NCBI GenBank assembly: GCA_027065385.1
Contig: JAMOOP010000053.1
Location: forward strand, 1-46,844
Reading direction: 5' to 3'
DNA length: 46,844 bases
Source of the DNA: Campylobacteraceae bacterium
GTDB taxonomy: Bacteria > Campylobacterota > Campylobacteria > Campylobacterales > Sulfurovaceae
Part shown: positions 37,827-45,146 of the stretch, one piece after another
Layout: every line of letters starts with the position of its first letter
Position numbering within the stretch: position 1 is the stretch's first letter
The notes under the pieces: model-generated
What the model saw: only the letters and a program-made list of their open reading frames with translations
What the model was told of the DNA's origin: nothing
Database searches by the model: none
Made by a program: the position numbers and the translations under genes

Positions 37827-39602
37827 ATGAAACGATTAATATTTATACTATTAGTAGTTACTGTAACATATATAGATGCTATGAGTAAAAGAGCAGATAT
37901 AAATGCTACAGATGATTGGGAGTATAATAGTACGCAAATTATGGAAGATAATGTTTTATCTTCTCCTGTACGCAGAAGTAAGGGCTTTAGCATGAGTAGT
38001 AGAGCCATATCTCCAAAAGCGTTTAGCCCAAAAATAGGTTTAGCAGTAGGTGGTGCAAAAGATACAAATAACTTTAAAGCCAATATAGAAAATGGCTATC
38101 TTCCTAAAATAGACTCTATAACTTATGAAGGGCAGTTTTACAACCACTATTTCGATACAGGATTAAATGGTAAAGAGTGTAAAGAGCTTTTCTGTCCTAG
38201 TTACTCATCAGCTAAAAGATTAAATGTTTTTTCTAAAGAGCAAGACTATTTTTTATCTGTTGGACTTAATTCTGGAATTGATATAAAAGATTTTAAAAGA
38301 AAAAAATTAAATCTTGTAGTTGTTTTAGATATATCAGGCTCTATGGGAGCTAATTTCGATAGTTACTACTATGATAAAAATGGAAATAAGATTGAAACAA
38401 AAGAGAAAAGTCAAAAGACAAAAATGAAAATAGCTACAGAGTCTATTGTAGCAATGCTTTCACACCTAAAAGATGATGATAGAGTAGGAATTATTCTATT
38501 TGATAATAAAGCCTATAGAGCAAAACCTTTAAGAATGGTTCTTCTTAGTAATAAAAAGGCAATCAGAGACCATATTTTAGCCCTAAAAGAGCAAGGTGGT
38601 ACTAATTGGAGTGCAGGGTATCAAGAGGGTTTAAAACTTTTTGATGATATAGAGACTAATAAAGAGTACGAAAATAGAATAGTATTTTTAACAGATGCTA
38701 TGCCAAATAGTGGAGAGTTAAGAAAAGATAGACTCTTTGGACTAGCAAAAAAGGCAAGTAAAAAAGGAATTCATACAACTTTTATAGGTGTTGGAGTTGA
38801 TTTTAATAATGATTTAGTTGAGTATGTATCTAAAACAAAAGGGGCAAATTATTTCTCTGTTCACTCATCTAAAGAGTTTACAAAACTTTTAGATAAAGAG
38901 TTTGATTATATGGTAACTCCTTTAGTTTACGATTTAGCACTAAAGTTAGATAGTAAAAAGTATAAAATAGATGCAGTTTATGGTTCACCTGATGCTAAAA
39001 TATCAACTGGTGAAATTATGAAAGTAAATACACTTTTCCCATCAACTAATGAGAATGGAGAGACAAAGGGTGGTATAGTTTTACTTAAATTAAAAAAGGT
39101 AGCAGAGGGTTCTGATGATATTAAACTAAAAGTTAGTTATAGTGATATTAATGGAAAACCGTTCTCAAATGAACAGAGTGTAGAGCTTAAAAAAGATGCT
39201 ATATATTATGATAATAGTGGAATTAGAAAAGCCATTTTAATAAGTGACTTTGTAACTGTTATGAAAAATTGGATTATAGATGCAAGAGCAGGTTGTAATG
39301 ATAATGTTAAATGGGTAATGGAAGATTATATAACTATTATGAAAAGATGTATGGTGTTCCCTCCAAAACGACCAATTTTCCCTACTATAAAAACATGGGA
39401 GAGAAAATCTTGTAAATTAAAAGTATCAGATGGATATAAAAAACTATTTAATACATTTAAAATTCATTTTGCAAAAGAGATGAGAGAATTAAAAGATGAT
39501 TCTTTAAAACTTGAATTAAATATTATTGATACTCTATTAAAACAGAAAACCCAAGAGTTTGATAAAAAAAATAGTGATGATTGGCAATTTGTGCAACAAT
39601 GA
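37827..39602 (+). CDS. exported von Willebrand factor A domain protein
   Basis: 591 residues. Short signal peptide ('MKRLIFILLVVTVTYIDA'). A segment before the VWA domain ('DYFLSVGLNSGIDIKDFKRKKL') and the MIDAS 'LVVVLDISGSMG' (Asp168, Ser170, Ser172) resemble the YfbK group. Further MIDAS elements are the Thr in 'QGGTNWSAGYQEGL' and the Asp in 'VFLTDAMPNSG'. The C-terminal 150 residues contain several Cys and long helices. Probably a periplasmic or surface metal-dependent binding protein. Its stop overlaps the crcB start (ATGA). Confidence 0.85.
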   Translation: MKRLIFILLVVTVTYIDAMSKRADINATDDWEYNSTQIMEDNVLSSPVRRSKGFSMSSRAISPKAFSPKIGLAVGGAKDTNNFKANIENGYLPKIDSITYEGQFYNHYFDTGLNGKECKELFCPSYSSAKRLNVFSKEQDYFLSVGLNSGIDIKDFKRKKLNLVVVLDISGSMGANFDSYYYDKNGNKIETKEKSQKTKMKIATESIVAMLSHLKDDDRVGIILFDNKAYRAKPLRMVLLSNKKAIRDHILALKEQGGTNWSAGYQEGLKLFDDIETNKEYENRIVFLTDAMPNSGELRKDRLFGLAKKASKKGIHTTFIGVGVDFNNDLVEYVSKTKGANYFSVHSSKEFTKLLDKEFDYMVTPLVYDLALKLDSKKYKIDAVYGSPDAKISTGEIMKVNTLFPSTNENGETKGGIVLLKLKKVAEGSDDIKLKVSYSDINGKPFSNEQSVELKKDAIYYDNSGIRKAILISDFVTVMKNWIIDARAGCNDNVKWVMEDYITIMKRCMVFPPKRPIFPTIKTWERKSCKLKVSDGYKKLFNTFKIHFAKEMRELKDDSLKLELNIIDTLLKQKTQEFDKKNSDDWQFVQQ

Positions 39603-39988
39603 TGAATTTAACTCTATTTTTAGCAGTGGGAGCTGGTGGTTTTTTAGGTGCAATTTTTAGATTTACTATATCTAGTCAAATTCAAAAGATGTCAGGTTCA
39701 CTCTTCCCTTTTGGGACTTTGGGTGTTAATCTATTGGGTAGTTTTATAATTGGTTTCCTATTTTTATATTTTCAATATATAAATCTATCAATGCACCAAA
39801 AAGCAATATTTGTAACAGGACTACTTGGTGCATTAACAACATTTTCCACATTTTCGTGGGAGACCCTTTTTATGATGCAAGAGGGATTATGGAGCAAGGC
39901 ACTTATTAATATAGGACTAAATATAGTCTTATGTTTAGGTGCTACTTTTATAGGAATGATGTTATTTAAAAAGATTTATGGGGTTTAG
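39599..39988 (+). CDS. crcB: fluoride channel CrcB/Fluc
   Basis: 129 residues from the ATG overlapping the VWA stop. Four transmembrane helices with the Fluc motifs 'GAGGFLGAIFRF', 'FPFGTLGVNLLGSF', and 'GLLGALTTFSTFSWET' (the Asn and Phe residues line the pore; the Thr-Ser turn binds Na+). Exports fluoride as an antiparallel dimer. No fluoride riboswitch can precede it here, because the start lies within the upstream gene. Confidence 0.93.
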   Translation: MMNLTLFLAVGAGGFLGAIFRFTISSQIQKMSGSLFPFGTLGVNLLGSFIIGFLFLYFQYINLSMHQKAIFVTGLLGALTTFSTFSWETLFMMQEGLWSKALINIGLNIVLCLGATFIGMMLFKKIYGV

Positions 39989-40087
39989 AATATAATATAA
40001 CCTTTGGGGAGTTGAAAAAGAGACATAAGGGTTATTAAGTATTATAATAGTTAATTAAGAAAAATATAAAAAATATTGTTTTTATTT

Positions 40088-40096
40088 TGCTATAAT
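40088..40096 (+). promoter_or_regulatory. extended -10 promoter of the GTPase-ATPase-nuclease module
   Basis: TGCTATAAT, a perfect extended -10 element, lies 27 bases before the ATG at 40124, which has AAGGGAA as ribosome-binding site. Confidence 0.6.
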
Positions 40097-40123
40097 AGTT
40101 TTACTAAAAATAAAAGGGAACAA

Positions 40124-41956
40124 ATGGGAATAGATATAAATTTAACTATAAAACGCATGGATTTAATGCTCAATAAAATACCAGCATCTTATAGCACATT
40201 TAAGCAATTAAAAGTTCATAAAGAATTTTTAATTGAAAGTTCAAATTATTTAAAAAATAATCATCATAAAATAGCTTTTATAGGTAAAGTAGGAGTAGGA
40301 AAGACCACTGCTATATCTAAATTGTTAAATTTGATGGATGGTGATAATGAGTTATTACAAACAGGAGGTGGAAGAACTACTATATGTGAAGTTGAAATTA
40401 GAGAAAGTGATAAAATATCAATAAAGATAGAACCTTATTCTAATGAGGAGATAAAAAAATATCTTGAAGAGTTCTCTTTTCATATTGAAGCTAAAGCTTT
40501 AAAAAAATTAAAAAACAACCAAGAGGTATTTACCCTAAGTAGTGAAATTGAAAGAGCATTAAGAAATATGCTTGAATTAAAAATACAATCATATAAGAAA
40601 GAGGGAAAAAGAGTAAGAGTTGATAAAGCCGTTGAATTATTTAACAAATATACTTCAAGAGATGATTTTTATGAAACTATTATTAATCGAATCGATTTGA
40701 ATAATCGTAATATAATAGAATTATTTGCAACTAATTCTTTAAATTCTAAGAAATGGCTTAGAGAAAATTTTAAAGAGATAAATAATGGAAAAAATAAAAG
40801 TGTATCACTTCCAAAAAAAATAATTGTCTATTTTAATGAAAATAAATTAAAAATCCCAAATATTAATTTATCAATTTTAGATACAAAAGGGGTAGATGAG
40901 ACAGCAAATAGAAAAGATATAGAAAATCAACTAAAAAACTCTCGTACAATATCCGTATTATGCACAAGTTTTAATGATGCTCCTGATAAAGTTAGTACAG
41001 ATATCTTAAGATATATGAAAGATTCAGGTTTAACCAATTATATAGCAAAAAGAGTTTTAATTTTGGTATTAGATAAAGATGGTGAAGCAGAAAGTATAGC
41101 TGACCTAGAAGAACCTGATTTAGAAGAAGGAAGAGAGATAAGAGAAGAGCAAATTAAAGGAGATTTACAAAATTCTTTAAATCTTAATAGTGTAGATGTT
41201 GTATTTTTTAACTCAAAATATGATACTCCTGATAAATTGAATTCTACTTTAATTCATAAATTAAATATGTTGCGTAAAGAGCATCAAAATCAAGTGGAAT
41301 CTATCATTGACTCATTAGATGAAATTGAAAGACAAACAAATAATCAATTATCACAAGAAGCTTTAAGAAGAGTAAAATCTTCTATCTCTATTTGGCTTAA
41401 AAAAGCAAAAGATATACGCTGTAATCTAAAAAAAAATTTCTCTACTATTTCTAAAATTATATTAGATAGGGGAACACATGTATCTAGCGTAAGAGCAAGT
41501 GTCAATAGATATGGGCAATGGCATAATTTAGATTATTATAAAATATTATCAGATTCTTCCCAACATCAAGCTGTTTTGTCTTTTGATAGATATAAAGATG
41601 AACTCTATTTTATTATTTCCAATATGCTTGAACAGAAAGATTTAAACTATCAAAAAGGTACATTAGATTCAATTAAAAATATTTTAGAAAAGAGAGTAGA
41701 AGATATATATATAACAGCTTACAATCTAGGAAAAGATACCTATTTTGAAGATTTGATTCAAGATATTGATTTATGGAATAAAATGAAGAAAGAATGGGGA
41801 AAAGGAGCAGGTTATAAACAGAGAATTGCAAATCATTCAGAACTATGGTTTTTAAATCAAGATTATAATACTTTTGATACTCAAAATAGTAAAACACTTA
41901 ATGATATGTGGAAAAACTTATTACTTGAAATAAATGAATTGATAGAAAATAAATAA
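40124..41956 (+). CDS. large dynamin-like P-loop GTPase, candidate defence protein
   Basis: 610 residues from the ATG at 40124 (AAGGGAA upstream; an earlier TTG start lacks a site). G1/Walker A 'GKVGVGKT' (54-61), a possible G2 Thr in 'GGGRTTICE' (81-89), G3 'ILDTKGVDE' (251-259, the D-x-x-G), and a possible non-standard G4 'LVLDKDGEA' (315-322). A helical insertion of about 150 residues sits between G2 and G3, and residues 370-610 are mostly helical, as in dynamin-like or septin-like NTPases. No transmembrane helix is evident. First of three co-oriented genes, 16 bases before the ATPase. Closest named family not certain. Confidence 0.7.
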   Translation: MGIDINLTIKRMDLMLNKIPASYSTFKQLKVHKEFLIESSNYLKNNHHKIAFIGKVGVGKTTAISKLLNLMDGDNELLQTGGGRTTICEVEIRESDKISIKIEPYSNEEIKKYLEEFSFHIEAKALKKLKNNQEVFTLSSEIERALRNMLELKIQSYKKEGKRVRVDKAVELFNKYTSRDDFYETIINRIDLNNRNIIELFATNSLNSKKWLRENFKEINNGKNKSVSLPKKIIVYFNENKLKIPNINLSILDTKGVDETANRKDIENQLKNSRTISVLCTSFNDAPDKVSTDILRYMKDSGLTNYIAKRVLILVLDKDGEAESIADLEEPDLEEGREIREEQIKGDLQNSLNLNSVDVVFFNSKYDTPDKLNSTLIHKLNMLRKEHQNQVESIIDSLDEIERQTNNQLSQEALRRVKSSISIWLKKAKDIRCNLKKNFSTISKIILDRGTHVSSVRASVNRYGQWHNLDYYKILSDSSQHQAVLSFDRYKDELYFIISNMLEQKDLNYQKGTLDSIKNILEKRVEDIYITAYNLGKDTYFEDLIQDIDLWNKMKKEWGKGAGYKQRIANHSELWFLNQDYNTFDTQNSKTLNDMWKNLLLEINELIENK

Positions 41957-41972
41957 AAAATTTGAGGAAAAA

Positions 41973-43373
41973 ATGGACGCAATAATTAAGTTTCAAAAAG
42001 GTACAAGTTTTGATATAAATAAGCAATTTAATACAGATAATGATATAGAGTATTATTTTAAGCATATAGTTAGTCAACAAGATAACTATTTTTATTACTC
42101 CAAAAGAATTAGACAGATAGAAAAAGATGATATTTTATATTTTGGTTTTGAGAGTAATATTTTGGTTGTGGCACAATATACAGGAAAATTTAAAGATATT
42201 GAAGAGAGAGGTTTTAATTATGGGTATCAAATTAAAAATATTAAAATTTTGTCAAAACCTATAGCTATTAATTATAAAGTTTTTAATACTCGCTCGTTGG
42301 CTTATGTAAAAACAGATGAACAAAGAGAAGAATTAAAAAAAATTCCTTATACTATTAATAATATTGAAGAAATTAGAATTAAATCATTAGATATAAAGAA
42401 TTTTACACTTTTTGGAAAAAATAGCTTCAAGTTTTCAAAAGGTATAAATATATTTATTGGAGAGAATGGAACAGGAAAAAGCCAAATCTTAAAATTATTA
42501 TATTCTATTATAAATATAAATAATGAAAATAGAAGATTTGAAGTCTCTATAGTTAATGAGTTAGAAGAGGTGTTTAGACCAACTGACAAAAAAATATCTA
42601 AATTAATCTCTTTTGGAGAAAAAAAGAGTTCTATAGATATAGATTTGTCAACATATAAAATAGGCTTTAATTTTACAAAGGACTCTAAATATGAGGTAAA
42701 TAGGGATAATATTCCTAAAAAGTTTTATAAGAAAGAGGCTCTTTTTATCCCTGCAAAGGAGATATTATCACATTTTAAAGGTTTTATAGGAACATATAGC
42801 AGACGAGAAATAGCATTTGATAAAACGACTTATGATTTAGCCATTGGTTTAGATACTCCTCTACTTAAAAATCAACAATTAATAGAAGAAAAACATAGAG
42901 AATTAGAAAAAATATTAGAAGGGGAAATTATTCAACTCAATGGAGAGTTTTATCTAAGACGATTTAAAGATGGGGAGTTAGTAGTTAGTTCAATGATGGC
43001 AGAAGGGTTACGAAAAATAGGGACAATTTCTTATTTATTAAAAAATGGTGCATTACATGAAGATACTATTCTCTTTTGGGACGAACCTGAGAGCAACTTA
43101 AATCCTAAACTTATTAGAGATATTGCTAAACTGTTTATATATTTAGAAAGTTTAAATATTCAGATATTTATTACAACTCATAATCTATTTTTAATAAATG
43201 AAATAGAGATTTTGAGACAAGAGGAAAATAATATTAAATATTTCTCTTTTGGATTTGATAGTAATCAAAATTTAAGAATTTCACAGAGTTCTAAATTAGA
43301 AGAGTTAAAAGATTTAATACTATTAGACGAAGAGATAAACCAAGGTGATAGATTTATAAATAGGAAAAGATAG
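41973..43373 (+). CDS. AAA ATPase with possible EVE/PUA-like N-domain
   Basis: 466 residues. Residues 137-420 are an OLD/SMC-like ATPase: Walker A 'GENGTGKS' (163-170), Walker B 'ILFWDEPESNLNP' (367-379), H-loop 'TTHN' (401-404). The signature region reads 'SSMMAEGLRK' instead of LSxGE, a variant seen in several defence ATPases. Residues 45-125 ('EKDDILYFGFESNILVVAQYTGKF', '...ILSKPI') look like an EVE/PUA-type modified-base-binding fold; this is inference from pattern only. The stop abuts the nuclease-like gene with no gap, so the two are coupled. Confidence 0.72.
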   Translation: MDAIIKFQKGTSFDINKQFNTDNDIEYYFKHIVSQQDNYFYYSKRIRQIEKDDILYFGFESNILVVAQYTGKFKDIEERGFNYGYQIKNIKILSKPIAINYKVFNTRSLAYVKTDEQREELKKIPYTINNIEEIRIKSLDIKNFTLFGKNSFKFSKGINIFIGENGTGKSQILKLLYSIININNENRRFEVSIVNELEEVFRPTDKKISKLISFGEKKSSIDIDLSTYKIGFNFTKDSKYEVNRDNIPKKFYKKEALFIPAKEILSHFKGFIGTYSRREIAFDKTTYDLAIGLDTPLLKNQQLIEEKHRELEKILEGEIIQLNGEFYLRRFKDGELVVSSMMAEGLRKIGTISYLLKNGALHEDTILFWDEPESNLNPKLIRDIAKLFIYLESLNIQIFITTHNLFLINEIEILRQEENNIKYFSFGFDSNQNLRISQSSKLEELKDLILLDEEINQGDRFINRKR

Positions 43374-43895
43374 ATGAAATTTATTGAAAACAATTTAGTC
43401 TTTGATTTTGACTCTTCTCTATCTATCAAATATGATGAAGCAAAATATTATAAAGAGAAATTTCAAACAATTTCAGATGAAGATATTTCTGCTGTTGATT
43501 TTATTACTATAAAAGATAATATAGGTTATATAATAGAAGTAAAGGATTATAGAAATCCTAATACAGAGTTTATTCATTATAAAAAGTTGATACCAATTTT
43601 AATTAAAAAAATCTTATCTACTCTATCAAGTATTATTCCTATGAAAATAAATGCAGAAAATAGAGTGGAAAGAGATTTAGCTAAAAAATTTTCTAAAATT
43701 GATAAGTTGATTATTATTTGCCATATTGAACTTCCACCAAAAATATCGAGACAAGAGATGGCATTTTTTAGAAGAGATAAATTAGAACTAGAATTAAAGC
43801 GTAAACTTTCACCTATCTATAATAATTTATATGTAGTTTCCACACTTAGTAATGTAACCCTACCTTGGAAAGTGGAGGATAAATTGCAAGTTTAA
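43374..43895 (+). CDS. PD-(D/E)XK-like nuclease, third gene of the module
   Basis: 173 residues. 'SAVDFITIKDNIGYIIEVKDYR' places Asp42, Glu55 and Lys57 on a beta-hairpin as in the PD-(D/E)XK nuclease core (D...ExK), and helix-rich sequence follows ('LIPILIKKILSTLSSI'). It begins directly at the ATPase stop (TAG ATG), so subunits are probably made in step. A dedicated nuclease effector or subunit of the ATPase is inferred; the motif assignment rests on a short match. Confidence 0.6.
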   Translation: MKFIENNLVFDFDSSLSIKYDEAKYYKEKFQTISDEDISAVDFITIKDNIGYIIEVKDYRNPNTEFIHYKKLIPILIKKILSTLSSIIPMKINAENRVERDLAKKFSKIDKLIIICHIELPPKISRQEMAFFRRDKLELELKRKLSPIYNNLYVVSTLSNVTLPWKVEDKLQV

Positions 43896-43903
43896 ATTGA
43901 AAT

Positions 43904-44056
43904 TTAAAAAAATAATTTCTTAGATAACTCTTCCCAATTATCTTTTATCTCATTATATCCAGACTTATAAGCACTCTCTATTTCTGAAAAGTTAAAGAGG
44001 TGGATATTAGCAACCCCTTGTAATCCACCACCACTTAAACTTAGTGTGATTTTCAT
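43904..44056 (-). pseudogene. patatin-like phospholipase remnant with internal deletion
   Basis: A 50-codon frame starts 'MKITLSLSGGGLQGVANIHLF', the patatin N-terminal strand with the GGGxxG oxyanion loop, and then goes straight into 'NFSEIESAYKSGYNEIKDN', which looks like the last helix of patatin-like proteins. The central part holding the Ser (GxSxG) and Asp (DGG) is missing, so the gene has lost most of its body by an in-frame deletion. It lies between the nuclease-like gene and leuB. Confidence 0.6.
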
Positions 44057-44075
44057 CTTCTATTTAAATTATGAC

Positions 44076-45146
44076 CTATTTAGAGACATAATTAGCAATA
44101 ATATCACCAATTTCAGAACATGAACATATCTCTTTTGCATCATAGGCACTTAAATCACCTGTTCTATAACCTTGTGCTAGAGATTTTTTAATAGCATTAT
44201 CTATTTTAATAGATGCCTCCTCTTCATTTAAAGCATACTTTAACATCATAGAAGCACTTGAAATTGTTGCTAATGGATTTGCTATTCCTTGACCTGCAAT
44301 ATCTGGTGCTGAACCGTGAATTGGCTCATATAACCCTACACTATTACCTATACTAGCACTAGGGAGTAGTCCAATAGAGCCACTTAACATACTAGCTCCG
44401 TCTGAAAGTATATCTCCAAAGATATTTCCAGTTAAAATAACATCAAACTGTTTTGGCTCACGGATTAGTTGCATTGTTGCATTGTCAACATACATGTGAG
44501 TAAGTTCTACTTCTGGGTAATCTTTAGCAATCTCTATAACAATCTCTCTCCAAAATTGGCTAACCTCTAAAACATTTGCTTTATCGACAGAACATACTCT
44601 TTTTGTTCTCTTCATTGCTATCTCAAAAGCTACTTTTGCTATTCTTTCAACCTCTTCTTTAGTGTAAACCATAGTATTATATGCCTTGTCTTCAAGTAGT
44701 TCTCTTGGTTGTCCAAAATATATACCACCTGTTAATTCACGAACTACCATAATATCAACACCTTTAACTACATTTGCTTTTAGTGTTGAGGCGTTTACTA
44801 ATTCATCATAAACTATAGCTGGTCTTAAATTAGCAAAAGTTCCCATTTCTTTTCTAAGCCCTAAAAGTCCACTCTCTGGTCTTAGGTGTCTTGGTAAATT
44901 ATCCCATTTAGGCCCTCCAATAGCACCAAACAAAATTGCATCACATCTTTTTACACCTTGAATAGTCTCTTCAGGAAGAGGAACACCAGTCTCATCAATA
45001 GCCGAACCTCCTAAAAGCATCTCTTTATACTCTAAATTAAACCCCATATTAGCAGATAGAGCATCTAAAACTTTTATAGCTTCATCAACTATCTCTGGAC
45101 CAATTCCATCACCTTTAATAACACCTATTTTATAATTTCTACCCAT
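44076..45146 (-). CDS. leuB: 3-isopropylmalate dehydrogenase
   Basis: 356 residues. Oxidises and decarboxylates 3-isopropylmalate with NAD+ in leucine synthesis. Visible: '[21 protein letters not shown]', '[27 protein letters not shown]', '[15 protein letters not shown]', the catalytic Tyr in '[20 protein letters not shown]', Lys in '[13 protein letters not shown]', and '[15 protein letters not shown]' with the metal-binding Asp. It starts one base after the leuD stop. Confidence 0.97.

Follow-up and report, generated by a model that had tools for sequence, protein, structure and literature searches.

A predicted dynamin-like GTPase encoded beside a candidate HEC-02 ATPase–nuclease dyad in a Sulfurovaceae genome

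We analysed a window of 46,844 nt, contig JAMOOP010000053.1 of a Campylobacteraceae bacterium (Sulfurovaceae; GCA_027065385.1), in which a cassette of three genes at 40,088–43,895 had been proposed, from its letters alone, as a possibly new defence module made of a P-loop GTPase, an OLD/SMC-like ATPase and a protein with a D...ExK motif. Genes 2 and 3 can be assigned, by their family matches, to a dyad of an already catalogued type, the PADLOC candidate HEC-02, and gene 1 is predicted to encode a dynamin-like GTPase. The three co-oriented open reading frames (ORFs) are real, with gaps of 16 bases between the GTPase and ATPase genes and 0 bases between the ATPase and third genes, and the protein types first proposed are supported by alignment residues, PADLOC matches and the nuclease motif, respectively. 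We give about an even chance to the reading that this is an acquired anti-invader cassette, in which a dynamin-like GTPase extends a HEC-02 dyad and would gate or trigger its nuclease module.

The ATPase matched the PADLOC models HEC-02A PDLC04213 (E = 1.7e-85) and HEC-02B PDLC04146 (6.9e-76) over residues 135–464, and Pfam AAA_21 (3.8e-17); its Walker A, signature and Walker B motifs are all present. A scan of contigs gave 198 pattern-matching stretches, 132 of which encode an ATPase relative, and 80 of these loci were kept, 75 with an intact ATPase ORF. The motif AEGxRK...FWDEPESN is nearly invariant across an alignment of 73 rows, with A343 in 69 and E344, G345, R347 and K348 in all 73. The signature 'MMAEG', first taken to be unusual, is thus the norm of the family and was dropped as an oddity. 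Weaker PADLOC matches to AriA (1.2e-18), GajA (7.8e-12) and PtuA (3.8e-11) trail HEC-02 by more than 60 orders of magnitude in E, and membership in PARIS, Gabija or Septu was rejected on that ground. About 134 extra residues at the N-terminus are 19% and 25% identical to the N-domains of L005 and L016, two other Campylobacterota homologues with N-domains of similar size; five further long N-termini among the 73 rows were read as over-called starts. We take the N-domains of L005 and L016, by eye, to be EVE/PUA-like, and no Pfam model matched this region in either of them or in the window ATPase. An EVE/PUA-like sensor in the window protein, as once suggested, stays unproven, the domain being too divergent to call. 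Separately, the L005 locus (also L158; Sulfurovum sp. UBA1140) has a 486-amino-acid (aa) ATPase ORF whose C-terminal tail resembles the C-terminus of the nuclease partner at L157, which would fit a loss of the nuclease core; the two loci adjoin the same gene, presumably tlyA-like, a name given by recognition.

The third protein matched HEC-02A PDLC04145 (2.1e-27, residues 3–168), and all six of its PADLOC matches at E ≤ 1 were to HEC-02. We detected a relative of this protein by tblastn (0.01) in 36 of the 80 ATPase loci, and in 55 of the 80 a same-strand ORF of 140–215 aa overlaps the end of the ATPase gene or follows within less than 30 bases. Across these 55 ORFs and the window protein, E55 and K57 are present in 56 of 56 rows and D42 and K79 in 55 of 56; all four are invariant in a chosen subset of 39 rows (alignment A4, with 38 of the 55 ORFs plus the window and 17 left out). 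The AlphaFold2 (AF2) model has a mean predicted local distance difference test score (pLDDT) of 94.3 and a fitting order of elements: helix 24–30, strands 43–47 and 50–58 with the motif, helix 69–93 and strand 111–119. Weighing against a nuclease assignment, a Foldseek search of this model against the PDB gave no match at E ≤ 0.001. Among the weak matches are HincII, N.BspD6I and the cap-snatching endonucleases of arenaviruses and bunyaviruses, all PD-(D/E)XK-type enzymes, and also unrelated proteins, one of which takes rank 1. In 39 nuclease homologues Pfam at 0.01 reported NERD in four, DUF6661 in two (best 4.9e-11) and FAM76 in one. With its conserved motif and confident model, we conclude that the third protein is very likely, not proven, to be a PD-(D/E)XK nuclease.

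A wholly new three-part system was rejected because the ATPase and the nuclease match HEC-02. The catalogued match covers genes 2 and 3 only, and what stands of the claimed novelty is the GTPase, which reaches beyond this locus because its family recurs beside other nuclease-based defence genes. The window dyad resembles HEC-02 in the matches given above and in its adjacent, co-oriented genes; it is unlike HEC-02 in being preceded by a GTPase gene, in the extra N-domain of the ATPase and in lacking neighbours with a PADLOC match. We take the name HEC-02 to mean an Hma-embedded candidate, Hma presumably standing for helicase, methylase and ATPase. Such embedding, perhaps no requirement, was not found here, as none of ten neighbouring proteins matches PADLOC. 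Eight of 38 printed same-strand ORFs upstream of ATPase relatives were recognised, rather than scanned, as what we take to be DUF1156-type methylase starts, in line with that meaning of the name. OLD-ABC ATPases paired with PD-(D/E)XK nucleases are described in BREX and BREX-related loci in the available part of PMC12839542, which treats Hma as a BREX-related system; Hma itself is covered in PMC8565338, likewise available in part. These dyads follow the same two-gene logic as that of the window and, unlike it, are auxiliary effectors inside BREX or BREX-related loci; the word 'GTPase' is absent from the main text of PMC12839542. PARIS (AriA/AriB), Gabija and Septu also join an OLD/ABC-type ATPase to a nuclease partner, and the window differs from them in having a nuclease of PD-(D/E)XK type, not TOPRIM or HNH (types in part from the available portions of PMC12839542 and PMC8565338).

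Gene 1 passed no curated cut-off in Pfam, NCBIfam, PADLOC or PHROGs. Its matches were sub-threshold P-loop models in Pfam and NCBIfam, Pfam Dynamin_N at 0.22 and one PHROG at 0.095, with none in PADLOC at E ≤ 1. The protein has a P-loop at residues 54–61, DTKG at 253–256 and a predicted long helical C-terminal half; an alternative start, TTG 48 bases upstream of the ATG at 40124, would lengthen it to 626 aa. P-loop and DTxG residues are invariant in the 12-row family alignment, the invariant positions being G54, G57, G59, K60, T62, G83, T86, E141, R144, R147, D253, T254, G256 and others into the C-terminal half. The AF2 model, built on an alignment of 4 sequences (pLDDT 71.6), shows a G domain followed by long helices; in ten-residue blocks the pLDDT is mostly 70–91 over the first 400 residues, with one block at 56, and 38–70 over residues 401–610. 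Foldseek against the PDB returned members of the dynamin superfamily at ranks 1–36 (E 2.9e-10 to 2.2e-04, probability 1.00) and then heterotrimeric G proteins. Among these 36 are CjDLP, SynDLP, IniA, mitofusin, BDLP, Fzo1, dynamin-1, MxA, Dlp1 and Vps1, their placement in the superfamily being by recognition. These matches indicate that gene 1 probably encodes a dynamin-like GTPase with a predicted dynamin-type G domain.

Bacterial dynamin-like proteins (DLPs) rank among the top Foldseek matches, namely a Campylobacter DLP pair (5oxf), SynDLP (7zw6), BDLP (2j69) and IniA (6j72), at E 2.9e-10 to 2.9e-07. The window GTPase differs from them in its 11–14% identity, in the lack of a membrane-type hydrophobic stretch (highest 19-residue Kyte–Doolittle mean 1.09) and in having relatives beside nuclease genes. 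Dynamin-like proteins known as Eleos are linked to phage resistance, and we know of no dedicated nuclease partner for Eleos or for DynA of Bacillus subtilis. DynA, dynamin-like as is the window GTPase, confers phage resistance and remodels membranes (PMC8844932, available in part). DO-GTPase/GAP1 conflict systems offer a different likeness, a GTPase as conserved regulator with variable effectors. According to the available part of PMC7159879, they also contain GAP1 together with GASH or FNIII components, and cyanobacteria almost entirely lack them. The three cassette proteins have no Pfam match to GAP1, GASH or FNIII, and the window GTPase family has presumed cyanobacterial members; we rejected membership in these systems since neither GAP1 nor a GASH/FNIII component was found by Pfam.

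The GTPase family is rare. We found it in 2 of 398 genomes of the order, 2 of 34 of the genus and 1 of 249 in a sample of the phylum, the last being the window's own genome; the order count omits four weak matches (E 4e-4 to 7e-4), three covering residues 5–68 and one 41–191. Samples of four other classes, which we take to be Alphaproteobacteria, Gammaproteobacteria, a Bacteroidota class and Cyanobacteria, gave 1/337, 1/274, 1/198 and 2/145, where the 1/198 is the seed genome G476, known beforehand to hold the GTPase. Among 72,556 plasmid records searched by tblastn, 19 have GTPase relatives covering at least 80% of the protein at 24–28% identity; no relative was found in 50,697 phage records at the limits used. 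Scans of viral contigs yielded none at first and at least three GTPase loci later. A broken relative, 41% identical to the window GTPase, lies where a phage-like IMG/VR contig ends (L117, 1681–3469), close to an integrase-like gene.

A tree of 24 GTPase rows has three supported groups. The first comprises 16 rows labelled as having a helix–turn–helix (HTH) domain (support 100/97), a label that rests on annotation or a reading of the N-terminus, with Pfam applied to one member, L088 (HTH_31, 3e-07). The second holds five rows without HTH (99/96), and the third (99/96) joins the window GTPase to two broken copies, one from the same genus and one on the phage side. The tree is rooted arbitrarily, three of its branches are long, six rows have unusual composition and two are open fragments of broken genes; L096, annotated as two ORFs, is in the neighbour counts and was left out of the tree.

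We detected a PD-(D/E)XK-like gene directly downstream of the GTPase gene in all five members of the second group, at gaps of 0, 0, 101, -29 and 37 bases. The five partners share 17 invariant columns, including D69, E92 and K94, and two of them are 75% identical. Among the four scanned with Pfam, one passed the cut-off (HSDR_N_2, 5.8e-11), the others scoring 5.3e-05, 0.068 and 0.0094. The wider neighbour survey covered 21 GTPase loci, omitting near-duplicates (L151, L152), three plasmid matches (H11, H15, H58) and broken or contig-end loci (L082/L108, L112, L116, L117). In 12 of the 21, a raw count, the GTPase gene has a nuclease or defence-system gene as its neighbour on one side: HEC-02 in the window, the five PD-(D/E)XK-like genes of the second group, GmrSD_N twice, Septu PtuA/PtuB, HamA, Gabija-like GajA/GajB at a distance of 528 bases and an HNH gene at 842 bases. 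Matches for the neighbours of HTH-GTPases are 3.7e-165 and 7.1e-111 (PtuA/PtuB), 4.6e-27 and 1.4e-27 (GmrSD_N), 2.6e-138 (Hachiman HamA) and 3.1e-49 and 7e-13 (Gabija-like GajA/GajB). Most remaining loci have a divergent HipA-family gene (3/21), a DUF3800 gene (1/21) or defence-like genes nearby, not adjacent (2/21; L095 and L118). The association of the GTPase with nuclease or defence genes is suggestive in the HTH group and stronger in the group in which it holds for all five. The three HipA cases (L094, L097, L098), on Rhizobium, Sinorhizobium and Agrobacterium plasmids, recall the HipB/HipA arrangement.

In the gated dyad that we favour, the ABC/OLD-type ATPase would sense infection or aberrant nucleic acid and control the small PD-(D/E)XK nuclease, a logic drawn from OLD-ABC/nuclease systems such as PARIS (PMC12839542, available in part). 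The GTPase would assemble with itself and act as a nucleotide-dependent switch, gating or triggering the nuclease module; we propose this role because one GTPase group has only a nuclease-like gene as partner, and presume the same role wherever a lone PD-(D/E)XK-like nuclease accompanies the GTPase. Once triggered, the ATPase and the GTPase would allow the nuclease to degrade nucleic acid of the invader or of the cell. We infer the coupling of GTPase to dyad; phage defence would be the function of the cassette, GTP the substrate of gene 1, and the GTPase may touch the nuclease directly, with events following in the order given.

Several observations weigh against such a gated dyad. The Foldseek matches of the GTPase have low query-normalised template modelling (TM) scores, 0.20–0.36, from a model resting on 4 sequences, and the 12 rows, read by eye, show no conserved canonical G4 motif, (N/T)KxD, where one is expected, so specificity for GTP is an assumption. 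Conservation of the trio was not found on present evidence. The GTPase was detected by tblastn (0.01) in none of the fetched DNA of the 80 ATPase loci, where some contigs end close by, and GTPase and HEC-02 stand together in the window only, with no other genome of the 34-genome same-genus set holding both. The ATPase occurs in 3 of these 34 genomes. One same-genus genome, G289 (99% complete), has a broken GTPase gene and no ATPase match at E ≤ 1e-40; this GTPase (L082/L108, contig C19) is 69% identical, has two stops and lies near a contig end beside an asnB-like gene, with neighbours unlike those of the window. In G1447 (83% complete), a contig end cuts an ATPase piece that is 73% identical over residues 276–463; a nuclease relative (39%) adjoins this piece, and no GTPase was found. 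We looked for the GTPase in 23 genomes that hold an ATPase relative, and one was positive (G476), with the GTPase on another contig. The window genome itself holds a second ATPase–nuclease-like dyad but a single GTPase match, that of the window. This second dyad (L159, contig C163, 71476–73115) consists of a 380-aa ABC-ATPase, 44% identical, and a 166-aa protein with 'ELKG', and resembles the L016 pair; about 120 bases separate the ATPase gene from the upstream contig end, leaving the upstream side unseen. This lack of a conserved trio suggests that the dyad can do without the GTPase. The neighbour survey adds to these points through the rawness of its tally, the absence of a notable neighbour in 3 of 21 loci (L087, L090, L150) and the GTPases of L087 and L092, which are 81% identical, yet only L092 adjoins Septu. 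Homology of the window nuclease to the HsdR_N-like partners was likewise rejected (hhalign probability 0.3).

The same distribution lends itself to another explanation, one that we consider rather unlikely, in which HEC-02 is a self-sufficient two-gene defence and the same cassette also carries the GTPase as a separate gene for defence or stress, for example a membrane guard like DynA. It would account for the 80 ATPase loci in which no GTPase was detected, for the GTPase of G289 without that ATPase and for GTPases found alone or with other partners elsewhere, and the phage resistance given by B. subtilis DynA (PMC8844932, available in part) provides a precedent. An independent GTPase sits poorly with the gaps of 16 and 0 bases, which suggest a single transcript, and with the nuclease-like gene directly downstream in every member of the second GTPase group; the low hydrophobicity of gene 1 argues against a membrane guard in particular. 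The large HTH group raises a further alternative, in our view improbable, that the GTPase regulates expression of adjoining defence genes, as its XRE-fused relatives may, and takes no part in an effector complex. The XRE-type N-terminal HTH of that group and the position of HTH-GTPases, which either precede defence and HipA genes or diverge from them, favour a regulator. The window GTPase, however, has no HTH and no upstream open frame able to hold one, its nearest relatives also start without HTH, and a regulator without a DNA-binding domain would need a partner. We regard as very improbable that the cassette has nothing to do with defence, a DNA-repair or metabolic ATPase–nuclease pair having come to follow a dynamin-like gene by chance. 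The absence of a visible defence island around the cassette would suit this explanation, as would the fact that our searches turned up no phage experiment on this locus, whereas the patchy spread of GTPase and ATPase among same-genus genomes, the low G+C content (GC), the broken-gene edge and the ATPase kin beside methylase-like ORFs speak against it.

The setting of the cassette (Table 1) is consistent with acquisition. Its GC is 24–26%, compared with 29% and 35% in the adjoining kilobases, and it lies between crcB (Pfam CRCB, 5.7e-25) and a leuB-like gene, a name that we presume from recognition; of the two flanking genes first named, crcB is therefore confirmed and leuB is by recognition. 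The broken patatin gene reported at the edge of the cassette is real. The remnant itself has no Pfam match and an intact relative matches Patatin (4.7e-27). Both ends of the patatin gene were found near leuB in seven of nine same-genus loci examined, with a spacing of 565 bases in six of them and of 720 in the seventh, which contains a run of N; the other two (L141, L143) have no patatin match. Among six printed loci the ORF is 251 aa in four and 263 aa, from an earlier start, in one, and is split by the run of N in one; L146 was left out of this comparison. The GC drop and the broken gene fit an insertion with loss of host DNA. Of the inserted island originally suggested, a low-GC stretch next to a broken gene is supported. 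None of 10 neighbouring window proteins (31.0–46.6 kb) matches PADLOC at 1e-5, and the eight of these scanned against Pfam have ordinary identities, so the cassette stands alone and not within a visible defence island. Rfam gave no match at 39500–44200, sequence searches of the PDB found nothing convincing (best 0.016), and a repeat search around the cassette found short AT-rich repeats only, no clear insertion repeats. The extended -10 promoter seen upstream was dropped as a signal, since TGNTATAAT occurs at chance frequency in the window (9 observed against 7.07 expected; at least 9 in 25 of 100 shuffles). A VWA-domain protein of 591 aa (37827–39602, forward strand; VWA 1.1e-12) overlaps the start listed for the crcB ORF.

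Table 1 Features of the cassette and its right edge, in window coordinates
Feature	Position	Strand	Basis or remark
Possible extended -10 of an operon promoter, TGCTATAAT	40088..40096	+	Not above chance in the AT-rich window
Predicted dynamin-like GTPase, 610 aa, no HTH	40124..41956	+	ATG 40124; ORF, 12-row alignment, AF2, Foldseek
Putative OLD/ABC-type ATPase of the HEC-02 kind, 466 aa	41973..43373	+	PADLOC, Pfam, 73-row motif conservation
Extra N-terminal domain of the ATPase, residues 1–134	41973..42374	+	Possible EVE/PUA-like sensor, unproven
Predicted PD-(D/E)XK-type nuclease partner, 173 aa	43374..43895	+	PADLOC HEC-02A, conserved residues, AF2, weak Foldseek resemblance
Patatin gene remnant, 50 codons, right cassette edge	43904..44056	-	Translation and comparison with relatives

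The dyad is thus known, and the GTPase family, its HTH fusion, its pairing with a lone nuclease and its addition to HEC-02 were not found in the libraries and literature searched. No paper was recognised as describing the GTPase family or HEC-02 in keyword searches, a weak test of absence that barely covered preprints. Genes 2 and 3 would be a further instance, with an extra sensor-like domain, of a known but little-studied candidate. The GTPase family matters more than the trio: it passes no cut-off in four libraries, yet occurs beside several independently known restriction-type systems. We tentatively propose, at clearly less than an even chance, that this uncatalogued family of soluble dynamin-like GTPases is an interchangeable switch for nuclease-based immunity, paired with a lone PD-(D/E)XK-like nuclease, fused to HTH beside Septu, GmrSD, Hachiman, Gabija-like or HipA genes, or added to HEC-02 as in the window. 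Such a family of switches, if true, would give bacteria a counterpart to antiviral dynamins such as Mx, acting through a nuclease instead of a membrane. If the GTPase gates nucleases, dynamin-type GTPases would form a sensing and switching layer common to several bacterial immune systems, and gating could be tested most simply on a lone GTPase–nuclease pair such as that of L114.

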